From contig NZ_LANF01000014.1 in assembly GCF_000966265.1 (NCBI RefSeq), forward strand, positions 1 to 64,000: a DNA stretch of 64,000 nucleotides, in the 5' to 3' direction. Both the position numbers and the translations under genes were made by a program. Under the pieces are notes generated by a model that had not been told where the DNA came from, ran no database searches, and saw only the letters and a list, made by a program, of their open reading frames with translations. The stretch comes from Palaeococcus ferrophilus DSM 13482. GTDB taxonomy: Archaea; Methanobacteriota_B; Thermococci; Thermococcales; Thermococcaceae. How positions within the stretch are numbered: position 1 is the stretch's first letter; each line of letters starts with the position of its first letter. This document shows positions 17,833 to 45,688 of this stretch, piece by piece.

Positions 17833-21711
<3,879 letters not shown>

Positions 21712-22465: not shown

Positions 22466-23803
22466 CTATCCCTCGAGGTTCTCGAGGATTCTCCTCCCCT
22501 TGGGGCTGAGGCGGTAGTATATCCTCCGGCCCTTTCTCCTGCTTTCCTCGATGAGACCCAGGGATTCCAGCTCCCTGATGTGCTGGTAGACTGCCTGGTA
22601 CTTCATGGGTTTCTCCAGTCTCTCCCATATCTCGTAGCCGTAGGCCTCGCCTTCTCCAAGGATGCGGAGTATCTCGAGTTTTGTTCCGCTTATCATCGAG
22701 CGCTCCCTCTCCTCCTGGAAGCTCTTCAGGCCGGACCCCGTAACCAGGAGGACTATCCGGTCGTCCCTCTCGAAGTAGCCTCCCTCGCTGAGCTTCATGA
22801 GGGCGGGAACCACGACGGCGGAGGCGTACTCACCGAACACCCCCTCGCGGGCCAGCTTCTTCTCCCCAACGTCGAGCTCCTCCTCTCGCACGACCACCGC
22901 CTTTCCACCGCTCTCCCGAACGGCCTCGACGGCTTCCTCGAGGAAGGGCGGTTCCCTAACGTAGAGGGCCAGTGCCTTGGTGAACTCCCTTTTAGACTTT
23001 CCTCCTTCAAGGACGGCCGCTATGGGGGAGCACTTCTCCGTCTGAACTGCTATGAGCTCGGGAACCTCCTCCACAAGCCCGAGGGTCTGGAGCTCTTTGA
23101 AGCCCTTGTAGAGGGAGTAGAGGAGTGTTCCGCTTCCCGTGGGAACCAGAACGTGGGTAGGGTTTAACTCCTCCCACAGCTCGAATGCAAGTGTTTTCTG
23201 CCCCTCAATCCCAACGGCGTTGTTGGCGGGCGTTACATCGTAGAGGCCGTTTAGCCGGGAGAGCTCGGAGGCGTAGGGGATGGCATCGTCCACGCTGTCT
23301 CCATAGCGTATTATCCTGGCCCCGAAGGCTATCATCTGAATGAGCTTTCCCCTATCAACCTTGTGCGGTATGACCACGAAAGCCTCCTTCTCGGCTCTGG
23401 CGGCATAGGCTGCCAGGGAAGCGCCCCCGTTGCCGTCGCTCGCTATTATGAAACCGTTCTCCGCATAAGTGAGGCCGTATGAAACCGCAACGCTCGCAAG
23501 TCTGTCCCTGAAGCTGCCCGTGGGGTTCCTCGTCTCGTCCTTGATGTGGACGTTGAGGGAAAGCTCCTCCCCAAGCTTTGCCTTAAATAGGGGCGTGCCT
23601 CCCTCGTTCAGGCTGATGATTTTTTTAGCGGGGGGCAGGAGCTCCTTGTACCTCCACACCCCCGGTTTTCTCCTCTTCCAGGCCCGGGGATTCACCCTCG
23701 AGTAGTCGTAGGTGAAGCGGGGCCTCCCACCGCACTCGCATTTGGGCGGGATTATCCCCTCGTACTCCCTGCCGCAGAGGGGGCAGACCGCCTTCAAAGT
23801 CAC
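22466..23803 (-). CDS. Threonine-synthase-like protein lacking the PLP lysine, fused to a PadR-like winged helix (445 aa)
   Basis: Residues 1-30 form a zinc ribbon (CPLC, CECGG). Residues about 60-370 have the threonine synthase/tryptophan synthase beta fold with [40 protein letters not shown] and [10 protein letters not shown]. The motif that should read PTGSFKDR is PTGSFRDR: Arg99 (AGG, bases 23507-23509) replaces the Schiff-base lysine. Residues about 370-445 are a PadR-type winged helix ([20 protein letters not shown]). The GTG start at 23803 overlaps the speE stop (GTGA). The fold may still bind PLP or an amino acid, so a ligand-responsive transcription regulator is the likeliest role. 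Many annotation systems would call it threonine synthase. Confidence 0.85.
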
Positions 23804-24648
23804 TCCTCCTTCTCTATGAGTTCCCTCACGTAGCGCGGCATCTGGAAGAGGGTTTCGTGCCTCTCCGGGTCGTAGTAGGTGAGGTCAAGCCCCTTGGCCC
23901 TCTCGAGGTCTACCCTCGTGAAGTCGATATCTCCCTTCACTCCAACCAGGAAGCTCCAGGGGGAGGCGTAGCCTATTACCGGGAAGCTGAAGTAGTAGAC
24001 CCTGTCGAAGACCTTCTTCATGTTCCTGTAGGCATCGAGGAGCTCATTCGTGAAGAGGTAAACGCTTCCCGCCTGGGTAACGTAGAGCCCCCTCTCGCCG
24101 AGGGCGTTGTAGGCGTCGCGGTAGAAGTCCTCGGAGAAGAGGAGCTTCGCCGGGCCAACGGGGTCGGTTGAGTCAACGATTATGACGTCGAACTTCTCCT
24201 TCGAGTTTCTCATGTACTCGACTCCGTCACCGATTATGAGCTCCGCCCGCGGCTCTTCCTTCTTGATCAGTCTCTCAAGGAGGTCTTTCGCGACATCGAG
24301 GTAGAGGAGGGAGGCCTCAACGACTCCGTCGTCAATCTCCACCATCGTGGCCTTCTCAACGCTCTCGTGCTTTAGAACTTCCCTGAGGGTCCCTCCATCG
24401 CCGCCCCCGATGACGAGGACCCTCCTCGGGTTTGGATGGGAGAGCATGACGGGGTGAACGAGGGGCTCGTGGTAGCTGTTCTCACCCAATTCGACGAGCT
24501 GAACTGTCCCGTCGAGAACGAGGAGCTTTCCAAATCCCTCCGTCTGGTATATCTCGAGCCTCTGGTATTTGGTCTGGGTTTCGTAGAGCCTCCCGGTGAC
24601 CTTGAAGGCGACACCGTATCCGAGGGGGTACCACTCAATGAAGTGCAT
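23800..24648 (-). CDS. speE: Polyamine aminopropyltransferase (spermidine synthase family)
   Basis: This 282-aa enzyme transfers an aminopropyl group from decarboxylated SAM to an amine; in Thermococcales the preferred acceptor is agmatine, giving N1-aminopropylagmatine. Motifs: [18 protein letters not shown] for the cofactor, [28 protein letters not shown] with the catalytic Asp, and the N-terminal [21 protein letters not shown] chose the ATG at 24648 (MHFIEWYP), correctly spaced from GAGGTGAT, over three in-frame starts just upstream. It overlaps the next gene by GTGA and lies 54 bp downstream of pdaD, so it probably shares a transcript with one or both. Confidence 0.93.
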
Positions 24649-24702
24649 CATCATCACCTCTGAAACTTCTACGCCGGTTTGCTTAAAAAGTTTGAGAAGA
24701 GG

Positions 24703-25176
24703 TCAGTAGGGGAACATAACGACGGCGGCGAGGGCTGCGGCGGGCTTGTCCCTGACCGTTATCTCCGAAACGACGACTTTAAACTCCTTGAGCTTCCATC
24801 CCCTGACCCTGAAGCCCTCTTCCACCATCTTCTTCACCATCTCCGTGGCCTCTTCCTTGGTGCAGTAGCCCGAGTATTCGTAGATGAGGCCGCCCTCGTT
24901 GTTCTCGCTTATGCCGACGCCAAGTGCGGCGCTTATGGTTGAGCCGGGTTCGTCGCTCTCGATGTGCGCATAGACAGTCGGCAGGAGCATTCCAATGGGT
25001 ATCTCCGGCATCTTCTCGACCCACTCTATGTGCGCGGGTATGACGCTGCTCAGCTTAACGAGGTTAACGTTACCTATACCCATCTTGAGGAGCGCGTTGT
25101 CAAAGGCGTTGAGTTTGGTACCGCCCTCCGCACTCGCGGCAACCATAATCGCTTTTTTGGGAGTTGTCCAGCTCAT
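24703..25176 (-). CDS. pdaD: Pyruvoyl-dependent arginine decarboxylase
   Basis: This 157-aa proenzyme cleaves itself between Ser43 and Ser44 in VKLSSVIPAHIEWVEKMPE, turning Ser44 into the pyruvoyl group. It makes agmatine from arginine, the first step of archaeal polyamine synthesis. The GGTKLNAFDNALL and AHIESDEPGSTISAALGVG segments are family marks. It precedes speE on the same strand, so agmatine formation and aminopropylation are encoded side by side. A 270-bp spacer with a probable promoter precedes it. Confidence 0.96.
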   Translation of the reverse strand: MSWTTPKKAIMVAASAEGGTKLNAFDNALLKMGIGNVNLVKLSSVIPAHIEWVEKMPEIPIGMLLPTVYAHIESDEPGSTISAALGVGISENNEGGLIYEYSGYCTKEEATEMVKKMVEEGFRVRGWKLKEFKVVVSEITVRDKPAAALAAVVMFPY

Positions 25177-44689: not shown

Positions 44690-45688
44690 TCATGGAAATG
44701 ACGACTTGAGCCCAGAGCCCGTTAGCATAACGACTACCCTTCCGCGCTCTCCCTCCCTCAGGTAGGCGGCGTAGGCCAGGGCGGAGGTCGGTTCCACTAT
44801 GAGCCCCATTGAGTACAGTTCCTTGAGTGCCTTCCGCGTTTCCTCCTCCCCGACGGAGACGCAGAAACCGTTAGTTTCCCTTAGGACCCTCACCATTTCC
44901 TCCTTTCTCGGCGGTTCAGGTATGGCTATGCCTTCCCCCAGTCTGTTAACCCTCTCGCTCCTCTCGCAGAGGCTCTCGAACCCCTCGGCCTGAACGGCCA
45001 CGAGCCTGGGGAGTTCCTCGATGGCCCCCATTCCCCTCAACTCCCTGAAGCCCTTGTAGAGGCCGAGGAATAGGCTCCCGCTCCCCGTGGGCACGAACAC
45101 CTGTTCCACCTTTCCGAGCTGCTCGTAGAGTTCAAACGCCGCTGTCTTCGTCCCCTCTAGAAAATAGGGATTGTACCAGTGGGAAACGTATGGCTCGTGC
45201 TCCCTCGCCACCCTGTGGGTCTCCATCCTGTCCCCGTCCACCTCGTGAACATCAACGCCCAGTGCCCTGAGCACCGCCTTCTTCCCCTCGCTGGTTCCTG
45301 AGGGAATGAAAACGTGGACTTTCAGGCCTTCCCTGCTCCCGAATGCCCCCATGCTTATGGCGGCGTTGCCCGAGGAGTCCAGGTAGACCTCCCTAAAGCC
45401 ATCCTCCCTGAGCTTTCCAACGGTAACGAAGCTCCCCCTGTCCTTGAAGGAGCCCGTTGGCGTGACGTACTCGAGTTTGAATGGACCCACGAGCGGAGTA
45501 ACAGGGACGGGAAGGTCGGGGAGATGCTTAACGGGTAGAAAAGCCCGATATCTCCTTATATCTGGTTCCCGTCCAACGAGCGCCTCAAAGGGTCCCTCAA
45601 AGCGGTTTACCACCTCGAGGGTTCCCCCGCAGTCGCAGACCGTGCGGAACTCGCGGTACGTTTTTCCACAGCGCGTGCACTTAAGCAT
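44690..45688 (-). CDS. Threonine-synthase-like PLP enzyme (332 aa)
   Basis: An N-terminal zinc ribbon (CTRC, CDCGG) precedes the fold-type II PLP domain. The Schiff-base Lys82 is present in TPTGSFKDRGS. Phosphate-loop and Gly-rich motifs VPTGSGSLFLGLYKGF and MLTGSGLKSS match threonine synthase. It is shorter than usual, and the paralogue at 22466 lacks the lysine, so this is the likelier working enzyme. It should convert O-phosphohomoserine to threonine or act on a similar substrate. It lies alone upstream of trkA, separated by a 31-bp gap. Confidence 0.85.
   Translation of the reverse strand: MLKCTRCGKTYREFRTVCDCGGTLEVVNRFEGPFEALVGREPDIRRYRAFLPVKHLPDLPVPVTPLVGPFKLEYVTPTGSFKDRGSFVTVGKLREDGFREVYLDSSGNAAISMGAFGSREGLKVHVFIPSGTSEGKKAVLRALGVDVHEVDGDRMETHRVAREHEPYVSHWYNPYFLEGTKTAAFELYEQLGKVEQVFVPTGSGSLFLGLYKGFRELRGMGAIEELPRLVAVQAEGFESLCERSERVNRLGEGIAIPEPPRKEEMVRVLRETNGFCVSVGEEETRKALKELYSMGLIVEPTSALAYAAYLREGERGRVVVMLTGSGLKSSFP

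Follow-up and report, generated by a model that had tools for sequence, protein, structure and literature searches.

The closest described counterparts of the protein analysed here are the bacterial MocR/PdxR regulators of the GntR type, in which a PLP-enzyme-like domain is joined to a winged helix; their regulon includes pdxST and pdxU-type transporters, and MocR has been stated to be absent from Archaea (PMC5320631). The PALP-PadR fusion has predicted operators at pdxS and B6 transporter genes and, by this working analogy, would act like MocR/PdxR, but it is not a member of that group, because fold, winged-helix family and domain order differ. In MocR/PdxR proteins, a GntR winged helix at the N-terminus is paired with an aminotransferase domain of fold type I, whereas the fusion carries a fold-type II PALP domain and a C-terminal PadR-like winged helix, and has usually lost the Schiff-base lysine. 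With the PadR-like regulators (PF03551) it shares a winged helix that scores above the Pfam cut-off, but here this helix is attached to a large enzyme-derived domain, the predicted sensor. ThiR of archaea is an HTH fused to a ThiN enzyme domain and offers a further parallel, an archaeal regulator built from an enzyme that belongs to the cofactor biology of its pathway, although its fold, cofactor and target are different. No published account of the fusion family, its locus or an archaeal B6 regulator was found in the open-access literature searched.

The fusion gene, a predicted vitamin B6 regulator, occupies positions 22466-23803 on the minus strand of the window (the whole 64-kb stretch of DNA analysed) and was delimited from its ORF, Pfam and NCBIfam matches and orthologue N-termini. 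Counted from GTG, the ORF has 445 codons. Residues 63-356 (22736-23617, minus strand) form a fold-type II PLP-enzyme-like PALP domain (PF00291, 222 bits), whose best PDB matches are 2d1f, 1uim and 2zsj, and which is predicted to be a ligand sensor from Pfam and a column comparison with plain threonine synthases. The earlier note on this DNA had recognised a PadR-like winged helix at the C-terminus, and Pfam confirms it at residues 378-441 (22481-22672, minus strand; PF03551, 35.4 bits against a curated cut-off of 27). This winged helix is strongly conserved in the fusion family, and its residues A403, Y405, Q406 and H407 are invariant across archaeal groups. Databases already include the PALP-PadR architecture, but name it as an enzyme: NCBIfam NF004170 ("threonine synthase") matches the full length of the fusion with 690 bits. 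The gene had also been described as coupled by GTGA to speE. The overlap exists (GGAGTGACTTTGAAG), but the true start is probably the TTG at 23797, two codons past the GTG, because it has better Shine-Dalgarno spacing and fits the orthologue N-termini MKVRC/MEVRC. The upstream neighbour, a speE-type polyamine aminopropyltransferase gene (23800-24657, minus strand), and pdaD for a pyruvoyl-dependent arginine decarboxylase (24703-25176, minus strand, from ORF and Pfam) serve here as context.

The resemblance to threonine synthase (ThrC) consists of a homologous PALP domain and a common N-terminal Cys4 motif, with about 40% identity to archaeal ThrC. An arginine had been claimed to stand at the Schiff-base lysine position, and alignment to the Thermus threonine synthase bears this out: Arg99 (AGG codon at 23507-23509, minus strand), in the motif PTGSFRDR that begins at residue 94, is aligned with Lys61, N125 with N87, T355 with T317, G126 with T88, G198 with R160 and S224 with N188. 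Besides lacking the Schiff-base lysine expected of a threonine synthase, the window protein has lost most of the residues that we take to contact the phosphate of phosphohomoserine in the Thermus enzyme (S84, T88, R160 and N188); S122 is kept, and G126, G198 and S224 replace the other three. Across the fusion family the columns of T88, R160 and N188 hold G/A/L/M, G/V/A and S, respectively, with the Thr lost and the Asn mostly lost, whereas the counterparts of N87 and T317 and the other PLP-ring and phosphate-loop positions are kept. The R160 column has Arg in 12 of 13 plain homologues and in no fusion. Judged by these positions, the view that the fusion protein is not a threonine synthase is supported, and the earlier warning that the automatic label misleads stands. 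Lysine-bearing fusions are probably not threonine synthases either, because they have lost the same substrate contacts.

In addition to the fusion with its extra winged helix, the fusion-carrying genomes examined hold separate Lys-type PALP homologues. The one in the window, already pointed out in the earlier note and used for comparison only, lies at 44690-45688 on the minus strand, keeps the lysine (PTGSFKDR) and is devoid of a winged helix. It is conceivable that the fusion is still an enzyme, threonine-synthase-like or of another PLP-dependent kind, working with another base or in its lysine form, and that the winged helix is incidental. The conserved PLP-loop residues N125, G223, G225 and T355 and the lysine kept in some members would agree with such a role; nevertheless, the tolerance of Arg, Met and Ser at the catalytic position, the separate Lys-type homologues and the strong conservation of the winged helix make it extremely improbable.

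A search of archaeal genomes for the same fusion, as the earlier note had advised, revealed a widespread archaeal family with mostly Arg at residue 99. Among 137 homologues with a winged helix, this residue is Arg in 124, Lys in 10, Met in two and Ser in one, so that the lysine in nearly all winged-helix orthologues that the note named as evidence against its reading was not observed. All 32 complete homologues without a winged helix have Lys and none has Arg, and six more Arg ORFs without a winged helix are truncated or broken (Fisher p = 4.5e-26 for residue 99 versus winged helix, with the relatedness of the sequences ignored). In Thermococcales, Arg is present in almost all orthologues, and the Arg99 of the window is therefore neither a sequencing slip nor a change in a single genome. 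Lys occurs in only two of its genomes, both from the window's own genus (L007 in G001 and L070 in G002), a one-base difference within an otherwise Arg clade. A scan of genome contigs detected full-length fusions in Bathyarchaeota, other Thermoproteota and MAGs labelled Thermococci or Methanomicrobia (70 Arg, 8 Lys, 1 Met and 1 Ser). Of 398 genomes from the Bathyarchaeal phylum, 74 contain the motif KDETRNPT by signature search. Fifty loci were fetched from these motif-positive genomes; in them, winged-helix proteins have Arg or Met, or Lys in one Bathyarchaeal clade, whereas proteins without the winged helix have Lys, the exception being one Arg ORF truncated at the end of its contig. In a phylogenetic tree built by a quick method, the fusions are set apart from plain threonine synthases (SH-aLRT 98), the Bathyarchaeal Lys-type fusions form one clade, and the window protein has a branch of 0.40 compared with 0.18 for its sister. 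The statement that fold-type II enzymes need the lysine is correct, but a few fusions also have it; its loss is frequent in the fusion family yet not the defining trait, since Lys is found in the Bathyarchaeal clade and in the two genomes of the window's genus.

The usual gene order in Thermococcales is proteasome beta subunit, aCPSF1/FttA, fusion, a 117-aa membrane protein with no Pfam or NCBIfam family match, and ribose-5-phosphate isomerase (rpiA) (e.g., L034-L063), with aCPSF1/FttA directly upstream of the fusion in 73 of 78 loci; the window, with its pdaD-speE setting, departs from this arrangement. Ribose-5-phosphate, the product of RpiA, is a substrate of PdxS. Outside Thermococcales, a gene for an ECF S-component of PF07155 directly adjoins the fusion gene in 59 of 82 loci, nearly always downstream and on the same strand, and Arg, Lys, Met and Ser forms of residue 99 were all found beside such genes. 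The S-component matches PF07155 with 112 bits, and its profile has a sole match in the PDB, HmpT (4hzu_S, E = 2.7e-19), of whose six ligand residues four are kept (E41, Y120, N140 and Q143) and two, H84 and Q87, are changed to K and E. PF07155 includes the B6 transporters PdxU and PdxU2/HmpT (PMC9997740), and the substrate of HmpT, originally named for HMP, was identified as pyridoxamine (PMC4860826). In Thermococcales the PF07155 S-component gene is present and unlinked to the fusion; it was found in 51 of 51 well-assembled fusion-bearing genomes versus 12 of 23 fusion-lacking ones. Outside Thermococcales, a search for PdxS came up empty in 28 of 30 fusion genomes and in 27 of 50 signature-negative genomes from the Bathyarchaeal phylum; with MAG incompleteness as a caveat, this scarcity in the fusion genomes fits a dependence on uptake. 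Absence of PdxS as the driver within Thermococcales was rejected, as most fusion-bearing genomes there have PdxS.

Of 58 fusion-bearing Thermococcales, 52 have the palindrome TCAAGTTNNAACTTGA (three or fewer mismatches) upstream of their S-component gene, and a clear site is absent from the other 6. None of 12 fusion-lacking Thermococcales has it there, their best matches being no better than those in shuffled sequence. The same palindrome lies directly after, or abuts, the TATA box of pdxS in all 17 fusion-bearing genomes tested with three or fewer mismatches (16 of 17 with two or fewer), whereas none of 12 pdxS promoters of fusion-lacking genomes has it with two or fewer mismatches and one has it with three. 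One genome (G052) has the pdxS site and no fusion was found in its assembly, which is 73% complete. In 41 whole genomes, exact copies of TCAAGTTNNAACTTGA are located at 30 places. The S-component gene and pdxS account for 28 of these, and the other two are one orthologous site, where the exact palindrome, TCAAGTTCTAACTTGA, lies between serS and the end of a moeA-like gene (G078:C1:1250070 in L334 and G082:C88:361 in L336); it could be a chance occurrence or mark a third target. The fusion changes state about three times on the pdxS tree, and in most pairings the site changes with it; three independent pairs are too few for significance. Both the pdxS and the S-component operators are retained in G001, which has the Lys99 form. 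Four fusion-lacking Thermococcus genomes (G020, G050, G055 and G065; L221, L231, L232 and L219) have another imperfect palindrome, TTCAAATCANNATCTGAA, after the pdxS TATA box, and possibly another regulator has replaced the fusion there. Autoregulation in Thermococcales was rejected, since the fetched psmB-FttA-fusion loci have no operator.

In Bathyarchaeia and their relatives, a first dyad search upstream of the fusion gene gave nothing clear, and the Thermococcal PWM alone had no match in these upstream regions; the operator was later located after the fusion gene and before the S-component gene, a gap that contains the longer palindrome TAGTATAGTTNNAACTATACTA. It is found upstream of the S-component gene with at most one mismatch in 31 of 59 cases and with at most four in 46 of 59 (about 0.02 expected from shuffles), and with at most three mismatches in 22 of 25 fusion-bearing genomes searched whole. 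All sites that were fetched and annotated precede an S-component gene, including two unlinked to a fusion (G114 and G109), and one weak second site, in G110, lies outside the annotated set. In 24 signature-negative genomes there are three weak matches, none beside an S-component gene, and most Lys-type Bathyarchaeal fusions examined have no clear operator. Two Bathyarchaeal pdxS promoters carry TATATTCAAGTT-like sites (TCAAGTTAGAACTTTA and TCAAGTTGTATCTTTA) in the same place as in Thermococcales, and the core common to the Thermococcal and Bathyarchaeal palindromes is AGTTNNAACT. The protein and its predicted operator are tied by co-occurrence and linkage only, and another co-distributed transcription factor could bind the palindrome, leaving the fusion a different role in B6 homeostasis. 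We regard this as quite unlikely, given that many lineages of two archaeal phyla have the palindrome in the short stretch just behind the fusion gene and that the fusion has a winged helix of its own.

The identity of the pathway can be judged from the same sites. In 29 of the 82 non-Thermococcal loci an AIRS-family gene lies nearby, whose product is HypE/ThiL-like (HypE 141 bits, ThiL 107 bits, both under the curated cut-off), and the operator-bearing S-component gene of G109 is followed by a protein read as ThiL. Together with the first name of HmpT, which came from HMP (PMC4860826), these neighbours would suit a family concerned not with B6 but with the regulation of thiamine or of HMP, its pyrimidine precursor, with an S-component carrying HMP or thiamine. 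However, the pdxS promoters of all 17 fusion-bearing Thermococcales tested and the two from Bathyarchaeia carry the operator, the sensor fold is a PLP-binding fold, and the ligand found with HmpT is pyridoxamine, all of which renders the thiamine alternative unlikely. The AIRS-family protein encoded after the S-component gene in many Bathyarchaeia (e.g., L138:3256-4275 and L095:6168-7247) could be an unrecognised B6-vitamer kinase or a pointer to thiamine. A plain thrC gene is divergent near the fusion in 12 of the 82 loci, an arrangement seen in one clade, and the ancestral fold is that of threonine synthase; a sensor of threonine or of an intermediate of its pathway that controls threonine synthase is nonetheless very unlikely, because the substrate-phosphate contacts are gone, operator copies cluster at S-component and pdxS genes, and in the divergent-thrC clade the palindromes found lie on the S-component side.

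We conclude, with a probability of about 0.82, that the fusion is a transcription factor governing B6 uptake and synthesis, probably as a repressor that senses PLP. The earlier proposal of a ligand-sensing transcription regulator is retained in this form, with a PLP-related ligand as the most likely one. The family would be an archaeal group of transcription factors derived from threonine synthase, in which the PALP domain, having lost threonine synthesis, would serve as a sensor and most likely bind PLP or one of its derivatives with no lysine Schiff base. As a dimer, the PadR-like winged helix would bind the palindrome with the core AGTTNNAACT, which overlaps or abuts the region from TATA box to start of the PF07155 S-component gene and, where present, pdxS. 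In archaea, a protein bound at or after the TATA box usually blocks initiation. We infer PLP as the ligand from the combination of a PLP-fold sensor with a B6 regulon, the pocket from the alignment, and repression from operators that abut or follow the TATA box; uptake and synthesis of B6 would then probably be repressed when PLP is plentiful. The Schiff base is probably dispensable, because Arg, Lys, Met and Ser forms all occur beside S-component genes, and the simplest model is that PLP or a PLP adduct binds non-covalently. A more specific proposal, to which we give slightly better than even odds, is that in Archaea a PLP enzyme of fold type II gave rise to a B6 regulator independently of bacterial MocR, that the change from Lys to Arg made the pocket a reversible, non-covalent sensor of PLP or a PLP adduct, and that the core has been conserved across two phyla. 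If the main reading is true, Archaea, where MocR is reported absent (PMC5320631), have a regulator of B6 metabolism, reached by a second, convergent path from PLP enzyme to transcription factor; the automatic annotation of many archaeal genomes would be corrected, and an orphan archaeal ECF S-component would gain a likely substrate. The prediction is directly testable in Thermococcus kodakarensis, whose orthologue is TK1427, beside the FttA gene TK1428.

For the window organism itself, the targets implied by the earlier note, speE and pdaD, were rejected: the 64-kb window contains no operator-like site, and speE adjoins the fusion in this genome alone. This leaves, as the predicted target, the S-component gene on contig C19, which has a candidate operator, TCAATTTTTAGCTTGA, with two mismatches. 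The B6 circuit may be drifting in this genome, because PdxS was not detected in it, the operator has two mismatches and the protein has a longer branch. The Lys-type PALP homologue at 44690-45688 has Phe (NPYFLEG) at the substrate-binding Arg column and may also not be a threonine synthase; a further PALP homologue on C19 (L002) has both the Lys and the substrate-binding Arg. Elsewhere in the window, a ribonucleotide-reductase-like ORF of 1288 aa (17833-21699, minus strand) harbors what may be an intein, with the sequence SHN/CGEEP.
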